NCBI RefSeq assembly: GCF_009725985.1
Contig: NZ_RCNR01000003.1
Span: 62,001 to 126,000, forward strand
Source of the DNA: Zobellia amurskyensis
GTDB lineage: Bacteria > Bacteroidota > Bacteroidia > Flavobacteriales > Flavobacteriaceae
Direction: 5' to 3'
DNA length: 64,000 nt
In this document: in pieces, positions 8,150-36,646 of the stretch
Numbering within the stretch: the stretch's first letter is position 1
How the letters are laid out: each line of letters begins with the position of its first letter
Notes under the pieces: generated by a model
Told to the model about the DNA's origin: nothing
Seen by the model: the letters and a program-made list of their open reading frames with translations, nothing else
The model's database searches: none
Translations under genes and position numbers: made by a program

Positions 8150-8181
8150 ATAAAGGCTGTTAATAATAAATAAAATAAATT

Positions 8182-9876
8182 ATGACGACTATAAATAAAC
8201 TATTTAAACTGATGTTAGCTGTGTGCATCTTGTCATCATCTTCCTGCGACAATGACATCACGGATATAAATACAAATCCCAATGGGGTAAACTTTAATGA
8301 GGCAAATCCTAGTTTTCTTCTTACGGATGTCATGGTAAATACAGCCATGGATGTAGGAAATAAAGGTTACAGTGAGCCATTATCGGCATTTGTGCAATAT
8401 ACCCAGAAAGATTCCTGGGGAACAAATGACTATGATTGGTCTGGAAGTGGCTGGGAAGACTATTACAACAATTTGCGTACGGCTAAATTAGCCTTGGAAA
8501 GATCACAGGAGTTAGGGTATAAATTTCATGAAGCCGTAGCTACTATTCTTATGGCCCATAATTTTGCCCTACTTACGGATTTTTATGGTGATGTGCCATA
8601 TTCAGAGGCAGTTGAGGGAGATGGAGAAGTTCTTCTGCCTAAATATGATTCTCAAGAATCCATTTATAAAGGTGTAATATCTGATTTTGAGTCGGCTTCG
8701 GCAATGCTTTCTTCCAATATGGGCAGCCTAGAGGTTTTTGTATCTACCCAAGATATCTTTTTTGAAGGAGATGCCGAAAAATGGGTAAAGTATGCCAATT
8801 CATTGGCGCTTAGGTATTATATGAGATTATCGGAAAAAGACCCAGCGTTTGCGGGGGCTGGCGTACAATCTACGTTAACGAAACCTTTGATTGAAAGTGT
8901 AGATGAAGAAGCGGCTATACCTTATTTAGGAACAAGCCCTGATAATTCACAACCAAGTAACGGTCAACAGGGTACACCATCTAATTTTATTCGTGTAAAA
9001 CCGTGCACCACATTTACTTATAAACTGGCAGCTTTAGATGATCCAAGAAGAGATATCTGGTTCGATGCTGTCCAAATTCCTATAAAAGTGGTGCCTGCTG
9101 CGGACGTTCCTGGTGGCGCTGATGATACTGTAGTAGACGGTGTTAGGTATATCAATGAAGAAACTCTTACAGATAATGGCTTCAAGATTTTTGATTTGGA
9201 TACTTGGTATGAAGATCGTATAGCTGGGTTGAGTTTAATTGATACCAGTAGTGTGTATGTGGGTATTCCTGTGTCCTATCAAGGATCGGAACCCTATACA
9301 TATAACTTAAACCCAACCCCGGTGCAAGGAGGTGGTAACGTTCATGTTTCATTAATGAACCCAATGTTTAATGATGTGTCAGGGTCAAATTTAAAGGCAC
9401 GTGTATTTTCTTATGCGGAACTTTGCTTTTTAAAGGCCGAAGCAGCATTAAAAGGTTGGGGGACAGATGCAGAAGGTAACTATAATAAAGGGGTTGAGGC
9501 TTCTTTTGAAACTTGGGGCATTGCGGATCAGTATACAGATTATATAGATAACGAAGGTGTAGCATTTGATGGTACTTTGGCTCAGGTCATGGAGCAGAAA
9601 TGGATTGCTAATTTTAGTTCTGCATCTGAAGCTTATTTAGATTGGAGACGCACAGGGTTACCTGATCTTCAAACAGGTCCATTTGCTCTGTCAACAGTCA
9701 TTCCGGTGCGTTTTGTGTATCCTACAGAGAATAGTACATTGAATAGAGAGAATTATTATGATGCTTTGAGCAGTTTGGAAACAACCGAGTATACGGATGA
9801 TGTTCCTGGCTATATTGAAAACGATACGCCTTGGTCAAAACCTTGGATTTTACAAGGAGTTTCCACTCCATGGTAG
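8182..9876 (+). CDS. SusD/RagB-family surface glycan-binding lipoprotein (first pair)
   Basis: This 564-residue lipoprotein has a lipobox cysteine at residue 22 (SSSSC), so it is lipid-anchored and should sit on the cell surface as the lid of the SusC channel. The body shows the SusD-like pattern: N-terminal NTNPNG, FVQYTQKDSW, a helical TPR-like region including LMAHNFALLTDFYGDVPYSEA, WVKYANSLALRYYMRLS, and the C-terminal SEAYLDWRRTGLPDL. These match the SusD-like_2 type. It follows SusC directly, and a strong terminator-like hairpin lies after its stop. Confidence 0.95.
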   Translation: MTTINKLFKLMLAVCILSSSSCDNDITDINTNPNGVNFNEANPSFLLTDVMVNTAMDVGNKGYSEPLSAFVQYTQKDSWGTNDYDWSGSGWEDYYNNLRTAKLALERSQELGYKFHEAVATILMAHNFALLTDFYGDVPYSEAVEGDGEVLLPKYDSQESIYKGVISDFESASAMLSSNMGSLEVFVSTQDIFFEGDAEKWVKYANSLALRYYMRLSEKDPAFAGAGVQSTLTKPLIESVDEEAAIPYLGTSPDNSQPSNGQQGTPSNFIRVKPCTTFTYKLAALDDPRRDIWFDAVQIPIKVVPAADVPGGADDTVVDGVRYINEETLTDNGFKIFDLDTWYEDRIAGLSLIDTSSVYVGIPVSYQGSEPYTYNLNPTPVQGGGNVHVSLMNPMFNDVSGSNLKARVFSYAELCFLKAEAALKGWGTDAEGNYNKGVEASFETWGIADQYTDYIDNEGVAFDGTLAQVMEQKWIANFSSASEAYLDWRRTGLPDLQTGPFALSTVIPVRFVYPTENSTLNRENYYDALSSLETTEYTDDVPGYIENDTPWSKPWILQGVSTPW

Positions 9877-9955: not shown

Positions 9956-10046
9956 TTCTTTCGTGTAAATACTAGAGAATAAAAGATATAGATCCTCTTT
10001 GGGTACTTGTAGATATACGAAAAATCTGAATTTAAAAATAGGGACT

Positions 10047-12377
10047 ATGCCAAAATTGATATTGTTTTTAATGGTGTTAGGGGTGAGCTTCTCTTGTTCC
10101 GAAAAGGTAGAAGATGATTTGGACTTATCAGGTGCGTCAATTTTAATTTCTGAGGAAATTAAAGACTCCATGCGTGAAACCGCAGGTGATGTGCTGGTAC
10201 AAGAAATTGAAAAACGAACTACTCTTGAACTTCTTAAAACAAACGATTGGAGTTCCGATACAACCATAGCCATAGCCTTACAAGATGTCACTGATATACT
10301 TGGTGAAAAGGTTCCGGACCAAGACGAGGCTGAAGGAAATATTTTAAAAAGAGAGGGATATCGAATTGTTCATAAGCAAATTGGTGAAAAGAATATTTTA
10401 TGGATTATAGGAGCAGATGCAAGAGGATTGCTTTATGGCATTGGAAAACTATTAAGAACTGCAAAAATGCAGGAGAAGAAGATTACACTTGCATCTAATA
10501 TTGATATTTCTGAATCCCCAGAATTTGAATTGCGTGGACATCAATTTGGTTATCGAAATACAGCAAACTCATGGGATTCGTGGACAATAGCACAATTTGA
10601 TCAGCACTTTCGTGAACAAGTACTTTTTGGTGCGAACAGTTTTGAGAACATACCATTTCAAGACCCCAACTCTAGTGTACACTTTAAAATTCACCCTCAA
10701 GAAATGGAGGTTGAATTAAGTAAGATCTGTGACAAATATGAAGCTGATTATTGGGTTTGGACACCTGCTCCACATGATTTATCCATTCAGAATGCACATC
10801 AAAAAGGTTTGGAAGAACAAGAAGCATTTTATGCTCGTTGCCCAAGACTTGATGGTGTATTTGTACCTGGTGGTGATCCTGGTGAGAATCATCCATCCAA
10901 ACTAATACCATATCTAAAAGATCTATCTGTACTATTAAAAAAACACCATCCTGATGCAGGTATATGGGTATCCCTGCAAGGTTTTAATGAAGAGAAAGTA
11001 TCCTATTTTTTTGAATACCTACAAACTGAAAATCCAGATTGGCTTAAAGGGCTAGTATATGGGCCAAGCAGTCCACCAATTGAGGTAGAACGCGAACTAC
11101 TTCCTGAAAAATACAAACATCGCTTTTACCCAGATATTACACATACTGTTCGTTGTCACTATCCTGTTGAAAATTGGGATCAAGCGTTTGCGCTTACTTT
11201 AGGAAGAGAACCTTGTAATCCACAACCAAATCACTACGCTAAACTATTTAATCAAGATGCATCATTTACAGATGGTTTTATTACCTATTCTGACGGTTCA
11301 CATGATGATATAAACAAAGTTGTTTGGAGCCAATTAGGTTGGAATTCTAAGGTTAATATTGAAAATACAATTCTTGAATACAGTAGATTTTTCTTTGGTG
11401 AAGCAATAGCAGAAGATGCTACTACCGGAATTTTAAATCTAGAAAAAAATTGGGAAGGTCCTTTAATTGGAAATGCTATTGTAAAAAAAACATTATCACA
11501 TTGGCAAAAATTAGAAAATGAAAATCCACAATTACAAGATAATTGGCGCTGGCAACAATTACTAATGCGAGCCTATTATGATGAATATATTCAAGACCGT
11601 TTAACCTATGAAAAAAATCTAGAATCAGAAGTATATGATTTATTTGCTGACGCCAAAAATAAGGGTGTAGACAAAACAATGCAAGATGCACTTGAACATT
11701 TAAAAAAGGCGGATATTGAACCAGTTTCACAAGATTTAAAAAAGAAGGTTTTTAATTATGCAGATGCTTTATTTAAATCTGTAGGTGCGCAAACAAGTGT
11801 TGAAAAATACAATGCAAGTGGAACCGAACGAGGTGCAATTCTCGATTTGATTGATCATCCTTTAAATAATAGATGGTGGCTAGAAGATGAATTTAAAAAA
11901 ATAGAAAAGCTAAAAACAGAAGAAGAAAAACTAAATAGATTATTGTTTTTAAAGACATATGAAAACCCAAGTGAAGGTAGTTTTTATGATAACATTTCTA
12001 GTGCTGATGCTAAACATGTAACATCTAAAACTGATGACGCAATTGACTTTTTATGGGAAAAAAATGGTAAAAGTAGAAAACGACTTTCAACCCAATTATT
12101 TCAATTTACGCCAACATTAGAATATAATGAACTTGATTCCGATGCAAGTTATATTATACGTGTTTCAGGGTATGGAGAAGCTCTTTTACGGGCCAATGGT
12201 CAACTTTTGAAACCAACAAAATATGAAAAAGACTTTGAGCAATTCAAAGAATTTCCTCTAGACAAGAAGCTTATAAAAGACGGAAAACTTAAAATCACTT
12301 TTGACAAACCCGACGAAGAACATTTGAATTGGAGAAAGCAATCGCGAGTGACCGATGTTTGGATTATAAAACAATAG
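10047..12377 (+). CDS. Exported lipoprotein with GH67/GH20-like TIM barrel, putative glycoside hydrolase
   Basis: From the ATG at 10047 the protein has 776 residues and a lipoprotein signal with the lipid cysteine at residue 17 (VSFSC). This is a better start than the in-frame upstream one. The first ~150 residues resemble the alpha-glucuronidase/hexosaminidase N-terminal domain (GYRIVHKQ, WIIGADARGLLYGIGKLLR). A barrel follows, starting at ELRGHQFGYRNTANSWDSW. VPGGDPGE (about 273-280) and YSDGSHDD (about 414-421) carry conserved-looking acidic residues that are catalytic candidates. The C-terminal ~100 residues may form a beta-sandwich. I cannot assign a numbered family or a substrate. It probably trims oligosaccharides at the periplasmic or cell surface for the kinase, isomerase and aldolase genes behind it. 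Confidence 0.75.
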   Translation: MPKLILFLMVLGVSFSCSEKVEDDLDLSGASILISEEIKDSMRETAGDVLVQEIEKRTTLELLKTNDWSSDTTIAIALQDVTDILGEKVPDQDEAEGNILKREGYRIVHKQIGEKNILWIIGADARGLLYGIGKLLRTAKMQEKKITLASNIDISESPEFELRGHQFGYRNTANSWDSWTIAQFDQHFREQVLFGANSFENIPFQDPNSSVHFKIHPQEMEVELSKICDKYEADYWVWTPAPHDLSIQNAHQKGLEEQEAFYARCPRLDGVFVPGGDPGENHPSKLIPYLKDLSVLLKKHHPDAGIWVSLQGFNEEKVSYFFEYLQTENPDWLKGLVYGPSSPPIEVERELLPEKYKHRFYPDITHTVRCHYPVENWDQAFALTLGREPCNPQPNHYAKLFNQDASFTDGFITYSDGSHDDINKVVWSQLGWNSKVNIENTILEYSRFFFGEAIAEDATTGILNLEKNWEGPLIGNAIVKKTLSHWQKLENENPQLQDNWRWQQLLMRAYYDEYIQDRLTYEKNLESEVYDLFADAKNKGVDKTMQDALEHLKKADIEPVSQDLKKKVFNYADALFKSVGAQTSVEKYNASGTERGAILDLIDHPLNNRWWLEDEFKKIEKLKTEEEKLNRLLFLKTYENPSEGSFYDNISSADAKHVTSKTDDAIDFLWEKNGKSRKRLSTQLFQFTPTLEYNELDSDASYIIRVSGYGEALLRANGQLLKPTKYEKDFEQFKEFPLDKKLIKDGKLKITFDKPDEEHLNWRKQSRVTDVWIIKQ

Positions 12378-12433
12378 TTGATTACTTTCACTATAGCACA
12401 CTAATTCTAGTTTGATTTAAGAATTTGCAGAAA

Positions 12434-13417
12434 ATGACACAGGTAACTCATAACAAAAAACCATCATCCTTTTACATAGGCCTAGATATTGGTGGTACCA
12501 AATGTGCTATTGTTTTGAGTGATATAGAATTCCACATCTACGAAAAGGTGTTTTTTGAAACCGATGTAGAGCGCGGACCAACCGCTATAATCAATGAATT
12601 CAAACTTCATATTCAAAAACTTCTTGAAAAATACAATCATAAAAACTTAGTGAAAATAGGTATAAGCTGTGGTGGGCCACTTAATTCAAAAAAGGGATTA
12701 ATAAAATCACCGCCAAATTTACCTGGCTGGATTGATATTCCGATTGTTGCTATTCTTAAGGAGGAATTCGGTGTTGATGTTGCCCTTCAAAATGATGCCA
12801 ATGCATGCGCTTTAGCCGAATGGATGATGGGTGCTGGAAAAGGAACAGAAAACATGATATTTCTAACCTTTGGAACCGGAATGGGAGCCGGTCTTATTTT
12901 AAATGGTAAAATCTATTCAGGTACTAATGATCTTGGAGGAGAAGTAGGTCATCTACGCTTAGCAGATGACGGGCCCGTAGGTTTTGGTAAAGCTGGATCG
13001 TTTGAAGGATTCTGTAGCGGAGGCGGTATTGCAAAATTGGCTAAGAGTGTGGTTCTAGAAAAGCATCAAAATAACATAACAGTTGAGTTTTGCTCTTCAA
13101 AAGAAAATCTCGATAAATTAACAGCTAAATCAGTGTTTACTGCTGCAATACAAGGTGATACAACAGCACTCGAAATTGTAAAAATATCAGCAAAATATTT
13201 TGGAAAAGCACTGGCACTACTAATCGATACTTTAAACCCAGAATGCATTGTAATCGGCAGCATTTATGCTAGAAACGAAGCCTTATTAAAACCCTTGGTT
13301 TATGAAGTGCTTGAAAAAGAAGCGATACCCGAAGCACTAGAAGTTTGTCGTATTTTACCTGCAAAACTGGGTGATAAAATAGGTGATTATGCAGCACTAG
13401 GTGTTGCTATGCAGTAG
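12434..13417 (+). CDS. ROK-family sugar kinase
   Basis: This cytoplasmic ATP-dependent kinase has 327 residues from the ATG at 12434; a TTG three codons upstream is the alternative start. DIGGTK (about 18-23) is the phosphate-binding loop, QNDANACALAEW carries the catalytic Asp, and GTGMGAGLILNGKIYSG with GGEVGHL gives the ROK signature. The usual CxCGxxGCxE zinc site is missing and replaced by FGKAGSFEGFCSGGG, as in a subset of ROK kinases. Its position 43 bp before a sugar-phosphate isomerase suggests it phosphorylates the sugar that the isomerase uses. The substrate may be an amino sugar or hexose but is unproven. Confidence 0.88.
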   Translation: MTQVTHNKKPSSFYIGLDIGGTKCAIVLSDIEFHIYEKVFFETDVERGPTAIINEFKLHIQKLLEKYNHKNLVKIGISCGGPLNSKKGLIKSPPNLPGWIDIPIVAILKEEFGVDVALQNDANACALAEWMMGAGKGTENMIFLTFGTGMGAGLILNGKIYSGTNDLGGEVGHLRLADDGPVGFGKAGSFEGFCSGGGIAKLAKSVVLEKHQNNITVEFCSSKENLDKLTAKSVFTAAIQGDTTALEIVKISAKYFGKALALLIDTLNPECIVIGSIYARNEALLKPLVYEVLEKEAIPEALEVCRILPAKLGDKIGDYAALGVAMQ

Positions 13418-13460
13418 AAAATCTACAGGTAAAAAACATATTGAAGGATAAAAAAATAGT

Positions 13461-14096
13461 ATGAAATTAGAAGATGTACTCGAAAAATTAATAAAACGCT
13501 ATCCATCGTTAGAATCTTGTAGTGAAGCAGTATTAAACGCGGGGGAAGAATTGGTAGATTGTTATCAAAACGAAGGCAAGTTATTGATATGTGGTAATGG
13601 AGGTAGTGCTTCCGATTCCGATCATATCGTAGGAGAATTAATGAAAAGTTTTTCAAAAAAACGTCCGGTAACCAGTGAATTTTCGAACCAATTACAAGAA
13701 AGCTCAAAAGAAAGAGGAGCACTATTGGCTTCAAAATTAGAAAGAGGCTTATCAGCTATTTCATTAAATGCTCATGGAGGTTTGATTTCCGCTATTTCAA
13801 ATGATATTGGTGGTGATTTTATTTTTGCCCAACAGGTATTAGGTTATGGTAAAAAAAATGACGTTTTGTTAGCTATAAGTACCTCAGGGAATTCGGTAAA
13901 TGTTTTAGATGCATGCATCACAGCAAAAGCCTTAGGCATGAAGGTGATTGGTTTGTTAGGCGAAACAGGAGGCAAAATAAAAGCCTTTTGCGATGTAGCA
14001 ATTTGTGTGCCGGCAACCAATACTGCAGCAGTACAAGAATATCATTTACCAGTATATCACACACTTTGTATCATGGTTGAAGAAACCATTTTTTAA
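13461..14096 (+). CDS. SIS-domain sugar-phosphate isomerase (GmhA-like)
   Basis: The protein has 211 residues and a single SIS domain. CGNGGSASDSDH (44-55), ISTSGNS and VQEYHLPVYH near the C-terminus match phosphoheptose isomerases. H55, E59, Q192 and H200 align with the four zinc ligands of E. coli GmhA (His61, Glu65, Gln172, His180). A helical insertion of about 25 residues (VTSEFSNQLQESSKERG) is absent from typical GmhA. It probably interconverts an aldose and ketose phosphate in the cytoplasm. Standing between a ROK kinase and a DapA-family aldolase, it is more likely catabolic than part of lipopolysaccharide heptose synthesis. MurNAc-6-P etherase is less likely given the length and zinc site. 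Confidence 0.82.
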   Translation: MKLEDVLEKLIKRYPSLESCSEAVLNAGEELVDCYQNEGKLLICGNGGSASDSDHIVGELMKSFSKKRPVTSEFSNQLQESSKERGALLASKLERGLSAISLNAHGGLISAISNDIGGDFIFAQQVLGYGKKNDVLLAISTSGNSVNVLDACITAKALGMKVIGLLGETGGKIKAFCDVAICVPATNTAAVQEYHLPVYHTLCIMVEETIF

Positions 14097-14153
14097 TTTG
14101 AAAGATGAATGATTCCATTTTATCCAACATCAATTAAAGAAACCACTTAACAA

Positions 14154-15542
14154 ATGAGCACTTCAAGAATTTCGAGCTTTTTAGTATTTCTAGTGTTAAC
14201 ACTTATGATAAGTTGTAAAGAAAAAGTAGTGTCTAAAAATAACATAATGATCGAAAAACAAATCACTTTCAATGCAAAAACCCATGCCTTGGATAATAAT
14301 GATAATTTCTCACCCGACGGACAGTTTTTATGTTACGATACACGGTATATGGTCTTCAATACTAATCTTGCAAATAGCAAGTCCGTAGAAAAAGTTGCCA
14401 TTGCCACTGGCGAAGAAACGATACTATGGCAACCGGAATCTGTTTCAGGAGAAAATGGGGCTCCTGGGGTAGCAGCAGTTTCATACCATCCTACAGAAAA
14501 CAAAGTTATTTTTATTCATGGACCTCAACTAGATGAAATTGATACAAGAGGCTATTATGATATAAGAAATAGAAATGGAGCAATAGTTAGCGCTGACGGA
14601 AATGGTGAATTTTCAATAGCTGATTTAAGAGATGTTGCTACTGATAGACCTACGACTTCAGGAGCACAACGTGGTGGAACACACCGACATGAATATTCTA
14701 GAAATGGGGAACGAATTGGTTTTACATATGATGACTTTTTACAGCAAGATTATGATCGTACTATTGGTTATATGGAAGCGAATAAAAATGCCCCTGACGG
14801 ATTCGATCATTATTTTGCTGTATTGCTAAAACCGACTAAAAAAGGAGAATCAAAACCAGGAGAAATAGAAAAAGCTTATGGCGATTCATGGGTAGATTCT
14901 CTTGGATCCAAACGTGCCTTTATTGGAAAAGTAAGAGCAGAAAACGGTATTGATTATGAGACATCCTTATTTGTAGCAGAAATATCAGATTCAGTAGAGA
15001 TAACGTCGGCCTATTCTGGCGATGCCATTACATATCCAGAACCTCCAAAAGGAATTCAAATAAAAAGGTTGACACATAGTACATCGGACGAAGGCATTGT
15101 AAGAGGGTCATATTCTGGTAAACAGGTAGCCTATTTATCTAAAGATAAAAAAGGCATATTACAGGTTTTTGTAATTCCGGTTGACGGTTCGGATCGCGCT
15201 GAAGAAATAGAAAAGAAACCGAAACAGGTCACTAATTTTACAGCTGATGCCAGTTATGTTCGTTGGCATCCTTCTGATCAATGGTTGTTTTCTATTAGTA
15301 ACGGAAAGGTGTATGCTAATTATGTGGGTTCTTCGAAAGATTTTGGAAAATCAATTTTACTGACCCCAAATAATTTGAACCGAGAAGCATTGGTTGTATC
15401 TCAAGATGGCAAATTATTGGCCTACAATATAAATATCCCACATGCTACTGCATCTCGAATAATAGATGGAAAACAGACAAATGAATATAAACAAATATTC
15501 GTTTTAGAGCTCAAAGATACGCTCAACCTATCCATCCAATAA
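14154..15542 (+). CDS. DUF3748-like (YidR-type) beta-propeller lipoprotein
   Basis: This 462-residue lipoprotein has a lipobox near residue 21 (LMISCKE). Repeated beta-propeller blades follow, such as NFSPDGQFLCYDTR, SYHPTENKVIFIHGP and HEYSRNGERIGFTYDD. The stretch VIFIHGPQ followed by YDIRNRNGAIV matches my memory of the DUF3748 / E. coli YidR family, whose gene lies next to sugar-acid (galactonate) genes. No enzymatic role is established for that family. A periplasmic or outer-membrane role in sugar handling, such as a mutarotase, lactonase or lyase activity, is only a guess. It is cotranscribed with the kinase, isomerase and importer. Confidence 0.72.
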   Translation: MSTSRISSFLVFLVLTLMISCKEKVVSKNNIMIEKQITFNAKTHALDNNDNFSPDGQFLCYDTRYMVFNTNLANSKSVEKVAIATGEETILWQPESVSGENGAPGVAAVSYHPTENKVIFIHGPQLDEIDTRGYYDIRNRNGAIVSADGNGEFSIADLRDVATDRPTTSGAQRGGTHRHEYSRNGERIGFTYDDFLQQDYDRTIGYMEANKNAPDGFDHYFAVLLKPTKKGESKPGEIEKAYGDSWVDSLGSKRAFIGKVRAENGIDYETSLFVAEISDSVEITSAYSGDAITYPEPPKGIQIKRLTHSTSDEGIVRGSYSGKQVAYLSKDKKGILQVFVIPVDGSDRAEEIEKKPKQVTNFTADASYVRWHPSDQWLFSISNGKVYANYVGSSKDFGKSILLTPNNLNREALVVSQDGKLLAYNINIPHATASRIIDGKQTNEYKQIFVLELKDTLNLSIQ

Positions 15543-15562
15543 GTACTTAAAAAATCAACGAT

Positions 15563-16795
15563 TTGAAAAACGCTACACAAACCAATAACTACCGAGGTGC
15601 CTTTGCTCTAATGACCACACTTTTTTTCATTTGGGGTGCTATTGTGTCACTTAATGATATTCTGATTCCGCATTTCAAAGGTTTGTTCGAGATGAATTAT
15701 ACCGAAACAATGCTCATTCAATTCTGTTTCTTTGGTGCATATTTTTTAATGGCAGTTCCTGCGAGTTTACTCATTGAGCGCATTGGATATAAAAAAGGTA
15801 TTTCAATAGGTTTGATAACCATAGGCCTAGGTGCACTATTATTTTTGCCTGCATCATGGGCAGTTTCCTATCCATTATTTCTATTTGGATTATTTACTAT
15901 GGCAACAGGAAGTGTAATTCTGCAGGTTGTGGCCAATCCATATGTTATTATTTTAGGAAAACCAGAAACAGCATCGAGTCGCTTAAACTTAGCACAGGGT
16001 ATTAATTCTTTAGCCACTACTCTAGCTCCTTTAGCAGGAGGTTTTTTGATTTTAGGACACTATAATTCTCCAAAAGAGGCGGCCGCTGCAGTTGAAGGCC
16101 CGTATGTTGGCTTAGCTATTTTTGCCTTTGTTATTGCTACCATTTTCTTTTTCTTAAAATTGCCAACAGTATTAGAAACGGATGGAGTAAAAGTAAAGGG
16201 CAATGTGTTACGTTTTCGACAACTACGTTTGGGAGCTATCGCATTAATGCTTTATGTTGGAGCTGAAGTCGCAATTGGCAGTTTTATTGTCAACTTTTTA
16301 GGTGAAGCAAATATTGCTGGTTTTGCTGAGAAAAAAGCTGCTACTTATATTCCTATTTATTGGGCAGGGTTAATGATTGGCCGATTTTTAGGTTCTGCAA
16401 TACTACAAAAAGCAAGTGCACAGAAAGTGTTATGTGCCTCAGCCTTGGCTTCAGTTCTTTTGCTTGCTATAACTATACTTACAAATGGTTATGTAGCCAT
16501 GTGGGCTATGCTCGCTGTTGGACTTTTCAACTCAATTATGTGGTCTAATATTTTTACTTTGTCTGTAAGCGGTTTGGGTAAATACACGAACAAAGCTTCC
16601 GGTATTTTGGTAATGGCACCCGTTGGTGGGGCTATATTACCCCTATTACAAGGAGTTCTAGCGGATATGCCAGCAATTGGTTTACACCTTTCATATATAT
16701 TACCACTATTGTGCTATGTATTTATAATCTACTATGCGCTTAATGGATATAAACCCGGTGCGAACGAATTGGCACGAGTTGAAGCTAGCAATTGA
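15563..16795 (+). CDS. MFS sugar:proton symporter, FucP/GluP type
   Basis: This inner-membrane importer has 410 residues and 12 predicted helices. FALMTTLFFIWGAIVSLNDILIPHFK at the N-terminus (read as adjacent shorter motifs FFIWG and NDILIPHFK) is typical of L-fucose/glucose/galactose permeases, as are ERIGYKKG and the GQGINSL-like AQGINSLATTLAP. The start is a TTG at 15563: no ATG keeps the conserved first helix, and the next Met lies inside it. It probably imports a neutral or acetylated monosaccharide for the ROK kinase. It overlaps the next gene by 4 bp (TTGA), a sign of translational coupling. Confidence 0.88.
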   Translation: MKNATQTNNYRGAFALMTTLFFIWGAIVSLNDILIPHFKGLFEMNYTETMLIQFCFFGAYFLMAVPASLLIERIGYKKGISIGLITIGLGALLFLPASWAVSYPLFLFGLFTMATGSVILQVVANPYVIILGKPETASSRLNLAQGINSLATTLAPLAGGFLILGHYNSPKEAAAAVEGPYVGLAIFAFVIATIFFFLKLPTVLETDGVKVKGNVLRFRQLRLGAIALMLYVGAEVAIGSFIVNFLGEANIAGFAEKKAATYIPIYWAGLMIGRFLGSAILQKASAQKVLCASALASVLLLAITILTNGYVAMWAMLAVGLFNSIMWSNIFTLSVSGLGKYTNKASGILVMAPVGGAILPLLQGVLADMPAIGLHLSYILPLLCYVFIIYYALNGYKPGANELARVEASN

Positions 16796-17739
16796 GTTTT
16801 ACAAATAATTCAAGACACTTGAAAAAAGAATTGTACCCACTTCACGGAATTGTAACCGTTTTAAACACGCCGTTTACAAAAGATAACACTGTAGATATAG
16901 CTGCACTGAAAACAAATGTAACCTATGCAATTGAAGCAGGAGTTAAAGGGTTCTTAGTGCCTGCAATGGCTGCAGAAGTATATAAACTTTCAGCTACAGA
17001 GCGCCTAAATATGGTGGCCGCAGTTCTTGAAGAATCTAAAAATATACCTGTTATAGCTGGCATTGGTGCTCATACAATTGAAGAAAGCAAAAAGCTACTA
17101 CAATCGCATTTAGACTTGGGATGCAAAAATGTGCTATTCCAAATTCCTTATAGTAACGACGCACAATTTGAATCGCAATTTGCAGAATTAGCAAGTTTAG
17201 GTCCTGAAATGATTATGCTACAAGATTGGGATTTTTCAGGCGATGGTTTGTCTGATAGTTTAATAGCAAATCTTTTTGAAAAACACGAAGCCTTTCGTTG
17301 CTTAAAAATTGAAACGGTGCCTGCAGGGGTAAAATATTCAAGAATATTAGAGCTAACAAAAGGTCATCTAAATTTAAGTGGTGGCTGGGCTGTTTCTCAA
17401 ATGATAGAAGGACTTAAAAGAGGTGTACATGCATTTATGCCAACCGGAATGCATTATATTTATACTGAAATCTACCAACGTTTTCAGAACGACCAAACAA
17501 AAGAAGCAATAGAATTATTTAATAAAATATTACCTGTTTTAGCTTTCTCAAATCAACATCTTGATATTTCAATCCACTTTTTTAAGCGCCTACTTTTTAA
17601 ACAAGGTATTTATAGTACCCCAAACGTAAGAACCCCTATTTCAAAGTTTGACAAAATTCATCAAAAAATCGCGGATAAACATATTCGACATATCATTGAA
17701 CTAGAATATGATTTAAAGTTAAAACGAAACGTAAAATAA
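16792..17739 (+). CDS. Divergent DapA/NanA-family aldolase or lyase lacking the usual Tyr
   Basis: This TIM-barrel protein of 315 residues belongs to the dihydrodipicolinate synthase / N-acetylneuraminate lyase family. The Schiff-base lysine is present (K172 in CLKIETVP). The family GTTGE loop reads AMAAE (58-62), and the active-site Tyr of the YN-P motif is replaced by Gln (Q144 in IMLQDWDFSGDG). It starts at a TTG overlapping the MFS stop codon. It is last in the SusC/SusD operon and may cleave a 2-keto-3-deoxy sugar acid or carry out a related aldol reaction; the residue changes argue against a standard DapA or NanA activity. It is not close to the other two DapA-family proteins in the window. 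Confidence 0.82.
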   Translation: MSFTNNSRHLKKELYPLHGIVTVLNTPFTKDNTVDIAALKTNVTYAIEAGVKGFLVPAMAAEVYKLSATERLNMVAAVLEESKNIPVIAGIGAHTIEESKKLLQSHLDLGCKNVLFQIPYSNDAQFESQFAELASLGPEMIMLQDWDFSGDGLSDSLIANLFEKHEAFRCLKIETVPAGVKYSRILELTKGHLNLSGGWAVSQMIEGLKRGVHAFMPTGMHYIYTEIYQRFQNDQTKEAIELFNKILPVLAFSNQHLDISIHFFKRLLFKQGIYSTPNVRTPISKFDKIHQKIADKHIRHIIELEYDLKLKRNVK

Positions 17740-17767: not shown

Positions 17768-19897
17768 TTACTCCGGAATTAAATTGTGGTATTTATTGAA
17801 GTAATAAGGTAAAAGATAAAAAGTGCCTTCGTGTTCTGAATAGCCATTTCCTTCTGAGTCATGCAAATCAAAAGCATCTCTATCTAAACGCACATGGCCA
17901 CGTTCATCAATTGGCAGTGCATAAGAATCTACGCGCCAGCCCATGTCAGCTTCCTGGGCCGGTGTAGGGTCAAATTGCACATCAAGGCGATGGGTATTGT
18001 CCATTTCGTATCCGATAAGGTCTAAGGGAATGCGCTGTAAAGTCTCTTTGATAAATTTAGGGTCAAGACTGCTTTTTCCATAGCGATCAATAACCGATTG
18101 TGCAAACAATGGATTCTCTTTGAACATTTCATTTGTATTAAAATAGCCTTCGTTTACTTTTTTGTTAAACGTGTTTGCTAATGCACCGTAAAGGCCATCC
18201 CAAAAAGCATTTTTTTGTTTACTAATATTTAACCAGGCATATTCAAGTGATAGGCGATACATCATTAAAAGCTCAGGGTCTTTTTCATAATTGATAAGTC
18301 CGTAGAAACTCATTAAACCAAGGTTATTATCCCAAGGCACTACATTTTCTGGCGGAAAAAATTCCTTTGGGTGCATGGCATTAATATGATAATTCTGTTC
18401 ATCACGTAACATCTTAGCAACCTCATCATATTTTGGATTTTCGGTAACATGACTAGCTACGTTTAGAAAAGAGAGCATCATCATAGAATTGAGACCGCGT
18501 TGATCCCAACCCCAAATAGAATTAAAATAATCAGGGTCAAAACTGCCCCAGCGTGTTGGCTTGCCATCATAATCAACTAGTTTAAAATTATGACGAATAA
18601 GGTGATCAGTAACATTGGCAACCACTTGTTTAACAGCTGTTTTCTCTTCTTGAGTTTCAGCTACAAGATCATAATAAACACCGTAATAAAAATAATGCCC
18701 CGCCAATTCATCAGAGCTAGTATCGCATTTCCATCTGTACTTACCATCTTCACTCAAAGGAAAACGAGGAAAAATATCTTTCCAAAACGGGTCATTCTTT
18801 TGATGCCTTTTATTGTATTCCTTATTGTACTGTTCGTTGACTGGTTCATGCCAATCTACAGGAATAATAACGCGGGCCGGGAACCCTGGTACTGAAGTAA
18901 TATCAACCAACCATTTTACAGCATTAAAACTTCTATCGGCAATTTCTTTGGCTTCTTTGTCTCCAGTGATTGCATATCGAAATGCCTGTGCTGCACCATA
19001 CATGGCGGTATATTGACCATCATTATCAGAAATCGCAAGTTGATAACTATCTATATCAAACTGCTTATTAAGCTGGTTTTGACAAATAAAGCCCATTCTA
19101 GAATGCCTCTCTTCGGTCAATTGTGTAAAAAATTCAGCCTTTTCTTCATAGGTGATTTCTTTGGAAATAATTTGACTAATACCGTTGTTCGTGGCAATCC
19201 ATGCAATACCTTCATTATCTACCATGATATCATTTATAGTATTATCTGGAAGCCAACGCCTTGTAGAACGATAATAGAAATAATCGTTTTCAGCTCTAAT
19301 GGCTCCTCGTTCAGTACCAAACCAAACCTCTCCATTTGGTCCTGACGAAGCACATGTAAAATTTGTATAAGGCACCCCTTCTTTCCCGGTAAATAATTGC
19401 CATGCGCCGTTGGTGTATTTCCCGATACCTTCTTTAGAACCAAACCATAAGTTACCACTTGAATCAACAACTAATGCCGCAACCATTTTTAAGGCCCAAC
19501 TATAGTTTTCATCTGCAGGCAAAATCTGTTTCCATTTTTTTCTTGCTACTTTTTTAAATAAACCACTTTCACAGCCAATATAAGTTTCACCTTTATAAGT
19601 TACTTCTGAGAGTATTTCTCCTGAACCTTCTGGTACGTTTTTGAACTCTGAAAATGATTGTTCCTTTTGATTGTTTTTTGCCTTCGCCCATTCTTCTCCA
19701 TTCCAACTAAAAAAAGCTCCAGAAGCTTTTACTAATGGCATATTATTATAAAGTTGAATTTTATCAATCGCTCCCAATGGAAGTCCTTTTTCACTGCTAT
19801 GAATTACAACTACATCCTGTTTAAACTTATCTTTCTCTCCATTTGTTATAAAAGAGAATTGAAGAATCGCGATTATTAATAATAAAAAGGTTCGCAT
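17768..19897 (-). CDS. Exported beta-propeller plus alpha/alpha-barrel protein, unknown activity (copy 2)
   Basis: A Sec signal peptide (about 1-19) is followed by propeller blades like those in the sensor part of hybrid two-component systems (DSSGNLWFGSKEGIGKY, GPNGEVWFGTERGAI, DNEGIAWIATNNGIS). A helical C-terminal half of about 430 residues has the look of an (alpha/alpha)6 glycosidase or lyase. Motifs shared with the upstream paralog are SDNDGQYTAMYG, PGFPAR, DTSSDELAGH and GKPTRWGSFDPDY, and the acidic residues in them are candidate catalytic residues. No kinase or DNA-binding domain is present, so it is not a regulator. It lies 47 bp behind its paralog in one operon. A new carbohydrate-active family is possible. 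Confidence 0.8.
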   Translation of the reverse strand: MRTFLLLIIAILQFSFITNGEKDKFKQDVVVIHSSEKGLPLGAIDKIQLYNNMPLVKASGAFFSWNGEEWAKAKNNQKEQSFSEFKNVPEGSGEILSEVTYKGETYIGCESGLFKKVARKKWKQILPADENYSWALKMVAALVVDSSGNLWFGSKEGIGKYTNGAWQLFTGKEGVPYTNFTCASSGPNGEVWFGTERGAIRAENDYFYYRSTRRWLPDNTINDIMVDNEGIAWIATNNGISQIISKEITYEEKAEFFTQLTEERHSRMGFICQNQLNKQFDIDSYQLAISDNDGQYTAMYGAAQAFRYAITGDKEAKEIADRSFNAVKWLVDITSVPGFPARVIIPVDWHEPVNEQYNKEYNKRHQKNDPFWKDIFPRFPLSEDGKYRWKCDTSSDELAGHYFYYGVYYDLVAETQEEKTAVKQVVANVTDHLIRHNFKLVDYDGKPTRWGSFDPDYFNSIWGWDQRGLNSMMMLSFLNVASHVTENPKYDEVAKMLRDEQNYHINAMHPKEFFPPENVVPWDNNLGLMSFYGLINYEKDPELLMMYRLSLEYAWLNISKQKNAFWDGLYGALANTFNKKVNEGYFNTNEMFKENPLFAQSVIDRYGKSSLDPKFIKETLQRIPLDLIGYEMDNTHRLDVQFDPTPAQEADMGWRVDSYALPIDERGHVRLDRDAFDLHDSEGNGYSEHEGTFYLLPYYFNKYHNLIPE

Positions 19898-19944
19898 ACG
19901 GTATCGAATTAAATGGATTTTTTAAAATTGATGCATTACAGATA

Positions 19945-22170
19945 TTATGGTTGCGGTGCGCTTATCACACCCAAATATCGACCCATCCAATAGGGTAATA
20001 ACCAGATATCACCTGCAGAATATTCTTCTTTGCCATTACCTCCCCCATCTAGTGTAAACATGTTGCCATTATGTCTTTGGATACGACGCTCGTCTGGTGG
20101 TAATACTTCTTTAGTTGTCTGCTCTCTGAAGTTTGGCTCTATCAATTCTATGTCTTTTCTATGGCTATTTTTAACATCCCAAGCAACCATATCCAATGGG
20201 TGTTCTTTAAGGTACCATACAGCTTCATTTAAATCAAATTCAGCTGTGCCAGTTAGTGCGGTCATAATATTCCAAGCACCCTCTTTTTCAGGTCGTTCAG
20301 CCTCCCAGTGATTAATAATAGATGCTTTAAACTTTGACTTAAGTGAATCATTAAATGCATAATTGTATAATCCCCAATAGCCTACAAAGTACATTTCATC
20401 ATCAGAATGATTCCATGATTCTGAAAGCATTTTACTCCAATCATCTGCATCTTCCGGAGCAGGTGCAACTTCTTTCATCGGCCGCATTAAGTTTTCTAAA
20501 TACCCATGATTATCCATTAAATCAAAAGCTTTCTCCCTATATTTTTCTTTCCCTGTAAAGTGATAAGCAGTTTGTAGCATAGCAATAATATTCGATGAAT
20601 TCACTTTTCGATCGCCTACCATTTTTGGTCTCGCATTTACATATTCAGGATTCCATTTTCCCCAAGTGGTAGGTTTACCATCAAAATCAATCATATACAT
20701 ATCATTACGAACTACATGACTCATTAAAGTGTCAATTAAGGTAATTGCGCGATCTTTTAAATCATTCTCCATTAGCTCTGCCATTACACCATATGCGAAA
20801 ATATGTCCGATAGCCTCATCACTACTGGTGGTTGATTTCCAATCCCATTCTGGATTGTTTGTATGCTGCCACCGGTCAGGATCGTGCAATTTTTCAATGT
20901 AGCCACTACGCTCAAAAGAACGAGAAGGAAAGCCTGGGACCGGATTAATACTGAACAATCGCTCCATAGCCTCCATTGATTCTATACAATTTTGAAGTGC
21001 ATCTTCTGATTTGGTTACCGCATATCGAAAAACTTCACCAGCTAAATACATGGTAGTCCATAAGCCATCATTGTCAGAATCAGAAAGGCGACCAGAATCA
21101 AAATTTCCATTGTCCATATCAACCAAAGTGGCATTAAAGCCTAATCGAATATGTCTATTTCTAACTTGATTTTCATAGTATAATGCCTTATCATACAGCG
21201 TCATTTCTTTAAATATGATATGGCCTAATCCTGCATCGGTCAAAACCAAAACAGACCCATCATTGCCAGCAGAAATTCGTTTTACATCATTACTAGGTAA
21301 CCATCTTTTCCCGTAATAATAATCGAATTTACCATCTTCACGTAGTTTAAAAGCACCCTCATTAGAGCCAAACCAAAGCTCACCATTAATAGTTTCTATC
21401 GTTGTTATTTGGTTGGCTGGTAGTTTGTTTTGAATAGCACCAATTTGCTTGCCTGTTATAGCATCTAGCTCAAAATAACCATTAGAAGTGCCAAGAACTA
21501 ATTTATCTTCTAGCAGCGCAAATGAGGTTAATTTTTGCACTTGCTGTATTGTTTTTAACGTATTATTGGAAGCATCAAAACTTGAAATACTATGTTCACC
21601 TAAAATCCAAAATATATTATTTGCAGCTTGGTACCGTATCGCTATAAGTTCATCGTCAATTTTTGATTTCCAAGATGGTTTATCTTTAGAAAGAAATTGT
21701 AACGCCTTACCATCACTAATTAAAAAATTAAAATTATCACCAGCTGTAAGTAATTTAGCTTTGGGTAAATCATGCAAAAGATAAAGGCTTCCGGCCCATG
21801 CATTACTAAAAACCGCTTTATCATCTAAATAGACAAACTGATTTTTATACAAAGTAAGTCCACTTATATTTTTGTCTGTTAGCGGGCGATATGTTTTGTC
21901 TTTAAGTAGTGTACCCGGATATAAAAATTGCCCATCATGCGTTCTAAGTAGGCCTTCTGAAGATAGTACCTGAATAACACCATTTCGATCCATTTGAACC
22001 TGTAAAAGCTCACTTTCTTCAGCATTATACTTAATACTTAAATCTTGAATATAAGGTACATCTTGATAATTAGGAATTTGAGAAACCGCTTCTTCTTTTT
22101 TCTCTGTATTGTTGCATGATACGATTAGAAGTGAAATTAGCCAAATGTAATGGCGATATAGATTTTTCAT
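19945..22170 (-). CDS. Lipoprotein beta-propeller plus alpha/alpha-barrel protein, unknown activity (copy 1)
   Basis: This 741-residue lipoprotein has its lipobox at about residue 19 (LLIVSCNN). The N-terminal ~320 residues form propeller blades (NGELWFGSNEGAFKL, DGSVLVLTDAGLGHI). The C-terminal half is helical and repeats the motifs of the 709-residue neighbour: SDNDGLWTTMYL, PGFPSR, TTSSDEAIGH and GKPTTWGKWNPEY. It is tethered to a membrane, whereas the paralog looks soluble, so the pair may act at different places on related oligosaccharides. It sits between the GH92 gene (199 bp upstream, its own promoter possible) and its paralog. Confidence 0.8.
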   Translation of the reverse strand: MKNLYRHYIWLISLLIVSCNNTEKKEEAVSQIPNYQDVPYIQDLSIKYNAEESELLQVQMDRNGVIQVLSSEGLLRTHDGQFLYPGTLLKDKTYRPLTDKNISGLTLYKNQFVYLDDKAVFSNAWAGSLYLLHDLPKAKLLTAGDNFNFLISDGKALQFLSKDKPSWKSKIDDELIAIRYQAANNIFWILGEHSISSFDASNNTLKTIQQVQKLTSFALLEDKLVLGTSNGYFELDAITGKQIGAIQNKLPANQITTIETINGELWFGSNEGAFKLREDGKFDYYYGKRWLPSNDVKRISAGNDGSVLVLTDAGLGHIIFKEMTLYDKALYYENQVRNRHIRLGFNATLVDMDNGNFDSGRLSDSDNDGLWTTMYLAGEVFRYAVTKSEDALQNCIESMEAMERLFSINPVPGFPSRSFERSGYIEKLHDPDRWQHTNNPEWDWKSTTSSDEAIGHIFAYGVMAELMENDLKDRAITLIDTLMSHVVRNDMYMIDFDGKPTTWGKWNPEYVNARPKMVGDRKVNSSNIIAMLQTAYHFTGKEKYREKAFDLMDNHGYLENLMRPMKEVAPAPEDADDWSKMLSESWNHSDDEMYFVGYWGLYNYAFNDSLKSKFKASIINHWEAERPEKEGAWNIMTALTGTAEFDLNEAVWYLKEHPLDMVAWDVKNSHRKDIELIEPNFREQTTKEVLPPDERRIQRHNGNMFTLDGGGNGKEEYSAGDIWLLPYWMGRYLGVISAPQP

Positions 22171-22369: not shown

Positions 22370-24742
22370 CTAATTTTTAGTCAATGACGGTGGCACATTT
22401 TTAACTCCCCATTTTTTATTCGGCTGAGGTCCCATTTTAAATTGCAAAGTACCTCCTTTGGCAATTTCATCATGAGTAATCCATGTTCTATCAAATGACT
22501 TTCCATTCAAAGTTGCCGATTGAATATACTTATTCTCTTTAGAATTATTTTTTGCTCGAATTACAAATGTTTTATTCTTATCAAGCTTTAAGGTTACTTC
22601 CCCAAAAAGAGGGCTGCCAATAGTATAAGTAGTACTTCCGGGTGCCATTGGGTAGATACCCATAGAACTTAAAATATACCATGAAGAAAGTGAACCCATA
22701 TCGTCATTACCTGGTAGACCCCCTGGCCCTATTCTATACATTTCTTCAGAAACTTGTCTTGCTCTATATTGTGTTTTCCATGGTTGACCTGCGTAATTAT
22801 ATAAATATGCAACATGATGCGAAGGCTGATTACCTTGTACATATTGGCCAATAGTACCAACTACACCTACATATTTGGGAGGTGAAATAATTGGACTCAT
22901 TTCAAAAAAAGTGTCCAATTTATCAATGAATTGATTTTTGTTGTCAAATAGATTAATCAAACCCTGCGGATCGTGTTGCACAGACCATACATACTGCCAT
23001 GCATTAGACTCAGTATAATGTCGGTTTGGACGACGCCCAACTAATAATGGGTCAAAATATTTGTAATAGCTATGGTCTTCTAATTTTACAATTTCTTGTT
23101 CATTATCACCTAATTCCGGTAAAAACTTACCATCATATGTTTTAGGTCTCATAAACTTCGTTTTTGGGTCCCAAACATTTTTATAATTATAGGCTCGTTT
23201 TGTAAACAACTCATAGTCTTTTGTTTTACCAAGCTCTTTGGCCAATTGCGCTATACACCAATCATCATAAGCTAACTCAAGTGTATTTGGCACAGCCTCT
23301 GTCACCTTATCAATTGGTGCAAACCCTTTTTCAAGATAATAGGTTAATCCTGATCTACCTGCTTCATGCGGAACTGGTGCTTTCGGAAGTTCTAAAGCCT
23401 TCTTGCGCATAGCTTTATACAAAAGGTCAATATCAAAATCACGATACCCTTTTAAATAAGCATCTACAATAACCGGAATCAAGTGGTCACCAACCATCGA
23501 TTCACCATAAACATTTAAAAAATGCTGCGCAGGTAACCAACCATAGTTTTCTACTTTGGCGGCAATTGATTTAATATAATCGTTGACATGTTCAGGTGAT
23601 ATTAATGTCATTAATGGATGCTGTGTACGATAGGTATCCCAACAAGAGAAAGAACCATAGAAATCAAATCCATCTGCTTGATGTACTTTTCCGTCTGAAC
23701 CAAAATATTTTCCATCTACATCTTGTGAAATATATTGCGATAACAAGGACCTGTATAAAGCAGTGGTGAAAATTTGTTTTTGATCTTCAGTTGCATCGTT
23801 CACCGTTATTTTAGAAAGCTCTTTGTTCCATATTTTCTTTGCGTTTTCTCTTATTCCATCAAAGTCCCAGTCTGATATTTCTTGATGTAGATTTTTTCGC
23901 GCACCTTCAATGCTCGTATATGAAATACCTACTTTAACTAAAATCTGTTCATTTTCTTCAGTATGGTATTGAACAAACGCGCCTATTTTATCACCTGCCT
24001 CAGCATTTTTGTATGGAAAAACACTTCCATCAGATTCTGGCGTTTTATAACTAGCATCAAAAGTGCCATAGTATAAAAATGGCTTACTAAATTCTGCCAC
24101 AAAATATACTTTTCCTAGTCCAGCTGCTTTGGCGCCTTCAATACGATTATTGTCAATTATTTTTAATTCAGAAAGTTCACCTTTTGTCATATCACCTATT
24201 TGGTGACCTACATCTAAAATTATCCTAGAATTCATTGATTTCGGAAAAGTATACCGATGAAAACCTGCACGTTGCGTAGAAGTTAATTCTGCAGTAACAT
24301 CATAATCTTTAAGCTTTACGGAATAATAACCCGGAGAAGCAATTTCATCTTCATGATCAAATCTAGAGCGATAGCCTTCATCAGGATTTTCTAAAGAACC
24401 AGATACTATTTTTAACTTGGTACTAGTAGTAGGCATTAATAATATTTCACCGCCATTAACCATACCAACACCGCTCCAATGGGTATGGCTAAAACCCATC
24501 AATGAACTTTCGGAATAAACATAACCTGCGCAATACGTCCAGCCTTCAGTATGTATATCGGGACTTAAGTGCACCAAAGCATTCGGTAATGAAGCTCCTG
24601 GAAAAGTATGCCCGAAAAAATCGGTGCCAATAAACGGGTCTACATAATCAACCAGTTCTTTGGTTTGAGAATGACCAATTTGAAAAAAAGCAACAATCAA
24701 AATCAAGGTCAATGCAGTAATTGATTTAAAGGAACATTTCAT
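22370..24742 (-). CDS. GH92 family alpha-mannosidase, exported
   Basis: GH92 enzymes are calcium-dependent inverting exo-alpha-mannosidases that act on N-glycans and yeast mannan. From the ATG at 24742 the protein has 790 residues with a Sec signal peptide (FFQIGHSQ); the nine residues encoded upstream lack signal features. An N-terminal beta-sandwich starts at VDYVDPFIGT, with GHTFPGASLPNALVHLSPD and MGFSHTHWSGVG. The (alpha/alpha)6 domain contains FSCWDTYRTQHPL and GLPGNDDMGSLSSWYILSSMG (shown here as GGLPGNDDMG plus SSWYILSSMGIYP), which carries the acidic pair near the catalytic base. The length fits the family. A consensus promoter lies 168 bp upstream. It would trim alpha-mannose from the target glycan. 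Confidence 0.93.
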   Translation of the reverse strand: MKCSFKSITALTLILIVAFFQIGHSQTKELVDYVDPFIGTDFFGHTFPGASLPNALVHLSPDIHTEGWTYCAGYVYSESSLMGFSHTHWSGVGMVNGGEILLMPTTSTKLKIVSGSLENPDEGYRSRFDHEDEIASPGYYSVKLKDYDVTAELTSTQRAGFHRYTFPKSMNSRIILDVGHQIGDMTKGELSELKIIDNNRIEGAKAAGLGKVYFVAEFSKPFLYYGTFDASYKTPESDGSVFPYKNAEAGDKIGAFVQYHTEENEQILVKVGISYTSIEGARKNLHQEISDWDFDGIRENAKKIWNKELSKITVNDATEDQKQIFTTALYRSLLSQYISQDVDGKYFGSDGKVHQADGFDFYGSFSCWDTYRTQHPLMTLISPEHVNDYIKSIAAKVENYGWLPAQHFLNVYGESMVGDHLIPVIVDAYLKGYRDFDIDLLYKAMRKKALELPKAPVPHEAGRSGLTYYLEKGFAPIDKVTEAVPNTLELAYDDWCIAQLAKELGKTKDYELFTKRAYNYKNVWDPKTKFMRPKTYDGKFLPELGDNEQEIVKLEDHSYYKYFDPLLVGRRPNRHYTESNAWQYVWSVQHDPQGLINLFDNKNQFIDKLDTFFEMSPIISPPKYVGVVGTIGQYVQGNQPSHHVAYLYNYAGQPWKTQYRARQVSEEMYRIGPGGLPGNDDMGSLSSWYILSSMGIYPMAPGSTTYTIGSPLFGEVTLKLDKNKTFVIRAKNNSKENKYIQSATLNGKSFDRTWITHDEIAKGGTLQFKMGPQPNKKWGVKNVPPSLTKN

Positions 24743-25251
24743 GTATTTGTTTTTATTGTTTTGAGGCATTCTGTATAACTATCCAAGTAATTATAAAAAG
24801 ACGTTTTTTTATATTTTTTTAAACTATATCACTTAAATCGGGTTCTTCCTTTTTTTTAAATTTGCTACTGTTGACCTTTTAAGGTGTTAAAGAATCTTGT
24901 CTACATTCACAAATATATAGCAGTATTTTAAAATCAAAGGTTAATATATAATGTGAATGAGATAAGATAGCGGAAATAAAAGAGTAGTTAGCAACTAAAT
25001 TTTTAATGACACTCATTCACTGTAGTTAGGTAAATATCAAAGTGTCTAGCCCTGAAGCCCATAAATTAGTTCAAAATTCAAAAACAACCAGATAGCAATC
25101 TATCCATGTAGTTGAGAATGAAGGTAAGAGTAGGTTTGCCTTTGCTTTTATTACCTTAGAACGAAACTATACACCAATAAAGGAAATGCAGCTATACTCT
25201 TTGTTTATTTTTGAATTCTATCTATTACATAGTAAAAAAGTGCACTTAGAC
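24743..25251. other. Intergenic region upstream of GH92
   Basis: These 509 bp separate the esterase gene from GH92, both on the minus strand. No gene was found. The part next to GH92 holds a good promoter (24910-24938). The remainder shows no strong repeat or hairpin. Confidence 0.6.
24910..24938 (-). promoter_or_regulatory. Consensus Bacteroidota promoter for GH92 gene
   Basis: On the minus strand TTTG (24938-24935) is followed after 17 bp by TATATTTG (24917-24910). This matches the -33/-7 consensus TTTG-N17-23-TAnnTTTG. It ends 168 bp before the GH92 start. The 12-mer around the -7 element (ACAAATATATAG on the plus strand, 24909-24920) recurs upstream of the esterase gene. Confidence 0.55.
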
Positions 25252-36629: not shown

Positions 36630-36646
36630 GTCCTATTTTTCTTAGT

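Follow-up and report, generated by a model that had tools for sequence, protein, structure and literature searches.

Tandem propeller–toroid proteins at a GH92/SusCD locus of Zobellia amurskyensis: members of an unclassified, possibly carbohydrate-active family

A stretch of 64,000 nucleotides from Zobellia amurskyensis (contig NZ_RCNR01000003.1, positions 62,001 to 126,000; hereafter the window) carries two neighbouring genes whose products, here called P0001 and P0002, each combine an N-terminal propeller with a helical C-terminal domain (Table 1). Both open reading frames (ORFs) are complete and lie on the minus strand, 47 nt apart in the ORF list of the window. The signal peptides were judged by eye from the sequence, no prediction program being used: P0001 begins with a likely Sec signal and lacks a lipobox Cys, and P0002 carries a lipobox in the context LLIVSC-NNTEKKEE. 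The two C-terminal domains are homologous, and the surrounding locus holds a GH92 gene and, by Pfam, a SusC/SusD pair. All this agrees well with a sequence-only reading made earlier, which had described two adjacent genes for exported paralogues, one a lipoprotein and the other apparently soluble, in a GH92/SusCD setting. The surface-export consensus sequences given in an excerpt of PMC5080379 are SDDFE for F. johnsoniae and C-X-K-(D/E)2-X for C. canimorsus, and the residues NNTEKKEE following the P0002 Cys match neither of these two Bacteroidetes motifs. P0002 may therefore face the periplasm.

Table 1. Features of the gene pair and its surroundings, in positions of the window (aa, amino acids; AF2, AlphaFold2).
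Feature	Position	Strand	Basis
P0001 gene, propeller + (alpha/alpha)6 domain, exported	17768..19897	-	ORF, 709 aa; AF2 pLDDT 87.9
P0001 likely Sec signal, residues 1-20, without lipobox Cys	19838..19897	-	sequence by eye
P0001 propeller, residues ~25-248, ~5 blades	19154..19825	-	Reg_prop E 4.3e-11; structure match to 4a2l_C
P0001 C-domain, residues 250-709, predicted (alpha/alpha)6 toroid	17771..19150	-	DSSP of model; conservation in 41 rows; hhalign
P0002 gene, propeller + P0001-type C-domain, lipoprotein	19945..22170	-	ORF, 741 aa; model pLDDT 72.4
P0002 likely lipoprotein signal, residues 1-18, Cys19	22117..22170	-	LIVSC lipobox (residues 15-19) by eye
P0002 propeller, residues ~38-324, ~7 blades	21199..22059	-	structure match to 4a2l_A
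P0002 C-domain, residues ~325-741	19948..21198	-	phmmer with P0001 C-domain E 8.9e-44; 29.8% identity, 400 columns
GH92 alpha-mannosidase-family gene, upstream of the pair, 199 nt gap	22370..24769	-	PF07971 E 1.8e-175; PDB GH92 chains
SusC + SusD-like pair	4736..9876	+	Pfam
Unclassified ~792 aa protein, residues 85-192 weakly O-GlcNAcase nagJ-like	9999..12377	+	PDB 6pv5, E 2.7e-4, 108 residues
ROK kinase, SIS isomerase, DUF3748, MFS sugar transporter, DapA/NanA-type (PF00701) aldolase, convergent with the pair	12425..17739	+	Pfam/NCBIfam
BNR_2 sialidase-like lipoprotein	38060..39181	-	Pfam; lipobox, three clear Asp-boxes + one degenerate, by reading

The propeller of P0001 is recognised from its sequence, with a significant Pfam match to Reg_prop (PF07494) and phmmer matches in the PDB to the hybrid two-component sensors 4a2l and 3v9f. 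For P0002 a trace of Reg_prop was found (E 0.35, under the cut-off), and phmmer against the PDB gave nothing under E 0.26. By structure search the propeller is seen in both models, that of P0001 matching 4a2l_C (VIA Z 18.3, rmsd 3.4, 218 aligned) and that of P0002 matching 4a2l_A (VIA Z 23.0, rmsd 3.9, 274 aligned). Manual grouping of the model strands into blades indicates that the P0001 propeller is short compared with that of P0002, a correction to the sequence-only reading. The propeller is thus common to these proteins and to the sensor ectodomains of the BT4663/BT4673 type, but P0001 and P0002 carry one propeller instead of two, followed by a helical toroid, and no kinase, regulator or Y_Y_Y domain was detected in either by Pfam, Reg_prop alone having turned up. 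The proposal of a sensor-like propeller joined to a helical domain in place of kinase and regulator is therefore upheld, and the identity of either protein as a hybrid two-component system (propellers, Y_Y_Y, transmembrane segment, kinase, receiver and HTH) is rejected.

The C-terminal domain (C-domain) comprises about 420-460 residues and is about 30% identical between the two proteins. The AlphaFold2 model of P0001, based on 48 aligned sequences, shows a mean predicted local distance difference test score (pLDDT) of 87.9 and a predicted template-modelling score (pTM) of 0.88; from residue 251 onward the mean pLDDT is at least 80 in 38 of the 46 ten-residue blocks. DSSP assigns to this model the twelve main helices 250-264, 293-311, 314-332, 395-411, 416-435, 464-485, 488-501, 523-537, 541-557, 564-582, 614-622 and 692-703, which form six hairpins provided that the last helix packs against the first; the pairing was read from the DSSP order, not from coordinates, the ring closure being deduced, and the short helices 359-368, 455-458, 503-507 and 596-606 were excluded from it. 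Long links of 21 to 69 residues precede residues 293, 395, 464, 523 and 692, the link before 564 has 6 residues, and the remaining turns have 2-4 except for 583-613, an insertion in P0001-type proteins according to the family alignment. The P0002 model is weaker (pLDDT 72.4, with residues 657-721 below 50), but its helices match those of P0001 where it is confident. Searches with the whole models against PDB and BFVD gave propellers as all matches among the best 50 listed per search. As modelled, the C-domain is an (alpha/alpha)6 toroid of six hairpins whose long loops share one face, in line with the alpha/alpha-barrel suspected earlier.

The C-domain is also found almost bare, with just 35-53 residues ahead of it, in ORFs of 410-428 aa at two loci of relatives, L118 and L177 (loci are numbered with L, genomes with G), and is therefore a self-standing unit. 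Both of these propeller-less proteins (L118:8421-9650 and L177:9532-10815) adjoin an FGE-sulfatase-type protein, and the one at L118 lacks several of the conserved acids described below.

In order to define the conserved residues, we used 41 C-domains of at most 80% identity, selected from 103 family ORFs (98 long enough), with a mean pairwise identity of 39% and a minimum of 21%. A total of 42 positions were conserved in at least 90% of rows. The motifs kept over the set are, in P0001 numbering, D291-N-D293-G, G338-F-P-x-R342, W389-K-x-x-T-S394-S395-D396-E and D442-x-D444-G-K-P-T448-x-W450-G. Thus the motifs SDNDG, PGFP-R, TSSDE and GKPT-WG, earlier noticed as shared by the two proteins, hold over these 41 rows, but the GH after TSSDE is weaker, His401 being present in 30 of 41 rows. 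R342, W450, R637 and Y698 are invariant, as are the acids D396 and D523 (41/41 each), followed by D442 (40/41), D293, D444 and D639 (39/41), D626 (38/41), D291 and E665 (37/41) and E397 (36/41). The ten acids that reach 85% conservation or more all sit on the long-loop face, which was defined after the model was seen and covers 268 of 460 residues; the chance of this is (268/460)^10, or about 0.005 as calculated by hand. We propose D293, R342, D396, D442, D444, W450, D523, R637 and D639 as candidate active-site residues.

Neither C-domain gave a significant match in Pfam, NCBIfam or PDB sequences, the best E value being 0.68 in a profile search of the PDB and 0.031 against PHROGs, in agreement with the earlier remark that they could not be placed in a known family. 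Relative to Pfam, NCBIfam and PDB the family appears unclassified, and it may coincide with a recent CAZy family. A Pfam search with 27 family members gave 13 families, all weak except DUF2750, and included C5-epim_C at E 0.028 in one member. The DUF2750 match (28.4 bits against a cut-off of 27 in a third paralogue of Z. amurskyensis, 21.4 in a relative at L065, over 59 residues) is absent from the window pair and was judged to be chance or a local insert. An excerpt of PMC11036162 mentions an unclassified six-hairpin-like hypothetical protein, JM81_RS13825, in a utilisation locus of Maribacter sp. MAR_2009_72, to which P0001 and P0002 are likened by this description and not by comparison of sequences. 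Among open-access papers, judged by titles and abstract starts, we found none on this family, the Maribacter protein being the nearest case.

Remote relationships were examined with hhalign, by comparing the 41-row C-domain alignment with alignments of other families. The highest score was obtained against 29 GlcNAc 2-epimerases (AGE, PF07221) fetched by Pfam search, with a probability of 94.6% and a pairwise E of 6.9e-8 over 215 toroid columns. The six-hairpin unsaturated glycuronyl hydrolases GH88/GH105 (PF07470), whose fold class is that proposed for the C-domain, followed at 43.9% (15 GH88 proteins), under a convincing score; membership in this family was rejected, as PF07470 matched neither the window pair nor the 27 members. 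As negatives, 13 unrelated families from the same loci reached at most 1.6%, 20 column shuffles at most 3.8% and the reversed alignment 2.2%. In an earlier run with less trimmed rows, the epimerases scored 93.5%, GH88 29.4%, and the top negative, an FG-GAP alignment, 9.4%. As a yardstick, GH88 against epimerases gave 88-91%, while GH116 or GH92 against either gave at most 1.8%, indicating that the test misses many toroid pairs. On these scores, the C-domain is a remote relative inside the six-hairpin group.

A scan of the genome collection with P0001, which detects close relatives only, identified 41 loci, 40 of them at 56-85% identity and one (L040) at 32% over residues 188-709. By record titles the hosts are Bacteroidota, comprising Flavobacteriaceae, Cytophagales-type genera, Mariniphaga and one Bacteroidales bin. 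The P0001 orthologue of Dyadobacter sp. CY356 (L041:7884-10135) lies in two frames, of 578 and 192 aa, and looks frameshifted or misassembled. The C-domain profile was run on four overlapping genome sets: it matched 8 of 395 genomes drawn from the phylum (including the window's own and a weak fragment in G061), 9 among the 248 in the order of G219 (G623 weakly), 6 among the 195 in the class of G236 and 4 among the 128 in the order of G228. P0002 was matched in none of 8 congeners, and tblastn with two family members found none among 72,556 plasmids. The family is rare and patchy within Bacteroidota.

The third paralogue lies about 2.2 kb past the window end (G000:C3:128159-130303, locus L117) and is followed by a GDPD gene and then a hybrid two-component gene; two genes ahead of it, at 62428-63627 of the window, is a gene for a 399 aa protein with no Pfam match. 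The arrangement of a P0002-type gene followed by a P0001-type gene on one strand was found at 17 loci (L001-L016 and L038) of Maribacter, Kriegella, Cerina and Arenibacter: the two are directly adjacent at 6, separated by DUF3748 at 8, and by DUF3748 plus a further family member at 3 (L011-L013). The same pair is cut by a contig end at L037, and related pairs occur in some further genomes. In the tree, which was midpoint-rooted and has long branches that raised tool warnings, the two types form separate clades, one of 20 rows and the other of 10, both supported at 100/100. On these separate clades and the identity of about 30%, a recent tandem duplication is rejected, and the pair is therefore an old partnership.

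The neighbourhoods of family members were compared, within 8 kb, between 31 dereplicated units (73 loci clustered at 80% identity, each unit represented by one locus) and 40 control loci of SusD-like_2 genes, drawn from 15 family-bearing genomes and holding SusC/SusD by design; the mean number of neighbours was 10.4 and 10.5, respectively. Single linkage at 65% merged 54 of the 73 loci into one unit, and clustering at 80% and 72% was used instead. A BNR sialidase-like gene was found in 11 of the 31 units but in none of the controls (p 3.3e-5), and in 5 versus 0 at 72% clustering (17 units, p 0.0015); it alone of 29 labels survives Bonferroni correction. Also present near the family and absent from all 40 controls were a DHDPS-type aldolase and HGSNAT (6/31 and p 0.005 each), YdjC and PhoPQ (5/31 each, p 0.013), and ceramidase-like and VCA0040 genes (4/31 each, p 0.03); the O-GlcNAcase-like protein of the 792-aa type was found in 6/31 versus 1/40 (p 0.02). 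No significant enrichment was observed for GDPD (4/31 versus 1/40, p 0.11), purple-acid-type phosphatase (6/31 versus 4/40, p 0.22), GH92 (2/31 versus 1/40, p 0.4) or hybrid two-component systems (5/31 versus 5/40, p 0.46). A phosphoglycan substrate, considered from the GDPD and phosphatase neighbours, was dropped from the main reading, as these were not significant against the controls, and figures only in two of the alternatives below. GH92 is adjacent in 11 of the 73 loci, seven of which are the window and the L001-L005/L016 clade; one representative per unit can hide genes of that unit, as in this case. A recurring locus type (L124, L169 and L172) holds SusC/D, a PhoPQ-type esterase, an O-GlcNAcase-like protein, a family member, HGSNAT, YdjC, BNR, a VCA0040-like gene and a phosphatase.

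Within the window, the 792-aa protein also shows a marginal GH67N match and is possibly another unclassified enzyme, and the BNR_2 protein is perhaps not a genuine sialidase. The SIS protein (13461-14096), beside the ROK gene and near the MFS gene, is closest to the phosphoheptose isomerase GmhA (154.9 bits, under the cut-off of 209), and these three genes could serve heptose or amino-sugar catabolism. Three ceramidase-like (PF04734) proteins are encoded at 35073-38053 and 43514-44803, one above the cut-off, one at it and one below; genes of this kind are likewise found close to family members in L028, L122, L126 and L171. Farther away in the window are FucI, YdjC, esterases, a second SusC/D pair, GDPD and a purple-acid-type phosphatase.

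On balance we lean towards P0001 and P0002 being anciently diverged members of an unclassified carbohydrate-active family that pairs a six-hairpin domain with a propeller module, a reading in which we infer catalysis, reaction type, linkage, substrate and the role of the propeller. The sequence-only reading had proposed a glycoside hydrolase or lyase role and is supported in part, by the sensor-related propeller, the modelled toroid, the conserved polar motifs and the carbohydrate locus. The family is exported, conserved and patchy, is predicted to be six-hairpin with ten acids on one face, and is often found by glycan enzymes; a carbohydrate-active enzyme is therefore the simplest reading. 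Several points weigh against it. No characterised homologue was found and no activity is known. The conserved residues, counted all together, show no significant concentration on the long-loop face (29/268 versus 13/192, p 0.14; versus 6/87 in the opposite-face turns, p 0.41), and the acids are not all universal, Cys being found at 293 in 2 of 41 rows, one of them the near-bare protein of L118. The p values for the 29 neighbour labels are uncorrected, and the seeds came from the focal loci, a bias toward finding them there. SusC lies within 8 kb in just 14 of the 31 units and SusD in 12, and three units (L033, L168 and L131) are without any labelled neighbour, indicating that members of the family also occur outside classical utilisation loci. 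Finally, hhalign gave 0.1% each against 6 GH92 and 7 GH116 proteins, which are also toroids; the epimerase link therefore reaches only some of the superfamily and is better evidence of fold than of function. The GH92 protein of the same locus is a same-direction neighbour with an (alpha/alpha)6 catalytic domain, yet without detectable profile similarity to the C-domain, and GH116 (DUF608, PF04685), seen by Pfam at E 0.018 in one of 27 members, is rejected on the same score.

The most serious competitor, which we regard as unlikely though worth keeping in mind, is that propeller and toroid only bind, in a non-catalytic partner for glycan binding or sensing (SusE/F-like or a sensor-adaptor) that perhaps signals to a hybrid two-component system. 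The homology of the propeller to sensor ectodomains, the lipoprotein nature of P0002 and the hybrid two-component gene following the third paralogue and GDPD would all fit such a role, but ten conserved acids and invariant Arg and Trp over 41 diverged rows exceed the usual needs of binding, hybrid two-component genes are not enriched near the family, and near-bare members do without the propeller. Cleavage by a polysaccharide lyase or a phosphodiester-type reaction on a phosphorylated or uronic-acid glycan, instead of hydrolysis, is to our mind quite improbable. Many (alpha/alpha) toroids are lyases, and GDPD or purple-acid-phosphatase genes are adjacent or one gene off at eleven loci (L006, L017, L018, L037, L117, L121, L125, L129, L130, L132 and L166), but neither is significantly enriched, and the conserved residues, which include several Tyr, contain no obvious Tyr/His lyase pair. 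An exported sugar isomerase or epimerase of the GlcNAc 2-epimerase group, suggested by the sole strong profile match and by the presence in the locus of aldolase, ROK and SIS genes of the kinds associated with amino sugars or nonulosonates, is very hard to believe, since Pfam gave no AGE match for P0001 or P0002 at E up to 1 or among the 13 families of the 27 members, the place of the catalytic His-x-x-Glu motif reads R-x-L-N-S without His (470 N in 30/41, 471 S in 36/41; hhalign alignment of 14% identity that may be locally wrong), the protein is exported and usually propeller-fused, the hairpins that align are a widespread type of repeat, and GH88 scores equally high against the epimerases while differing from them in function.

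If P0001 and P0002 are indeed carbohydrate-active enzymes, oligosaccharides, delivered here by SusC/SusD, would be bound by soluble P0001 and lipid-anchored P0002 in a cleft that the long loops would form at one side of the toroid. At this site D396 and D523, with D442/D444, D293 and D639 and with R342, R637 and W450, would hold and cleave the glycosidic bond, hydrolysis being the likeliest reaction. The propeller would be a module for positioning, binding or oligomerisation, and the two paralogues might take different linkages of one glycan and work in concert with GH92 and the sialidase-like protein.

Gene context points to a heteroglycan with an amino sugar and an ulosonic acid as the most likely substrate. 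YdjC is a deacetylase. HGSNAT acetylates the terminal glucosamine of heparan sulfate, according to an excerpt of PMC11357348. The amino sugar is suggested because HGSNAT and YdjC are among the partners, and the ulosonic acid because the sialidase-like protein and the NanA-type aldolase are. The presence of mannose in some loci is suggested by GH92, adjacent as it is in a minority of loci and not enriched after dereplication; the wider context suggests amino sugars and ulosonic (sialic-type) acids at least as much as mannose. A bolder version, which we consider doubtful, is that this is the founder of a new glycan-cleaving family attacking the phosphorylated, amino-sugar/ulosonic-acid glycan of a glycolipid (lipopolysaccharide core or glycosyl-phosphoceramide), and that the island of about 65 kb would be a complete pathway for eating it; the genes cited for this are GH92, the sialidase-like protein, NanA-type aldolases, the phosphoheptose-isomerase-like SIS protein, ceramidase-like amidases, the phosphatase and GDPD, with HGSNAT at relatives' loci.

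The locus type of L124, L169 and L172 looks like a glycan degradation system. If the C-domain is catalytic, the PGFP-R and TSSDE motifs would be ready targets for mutagenesis, a sensor-type propeller would have been reused on an enzyme, and the family would represent an extra group of six-hairpin enzymes passed over by current Pfam and NCBIfam annotation.

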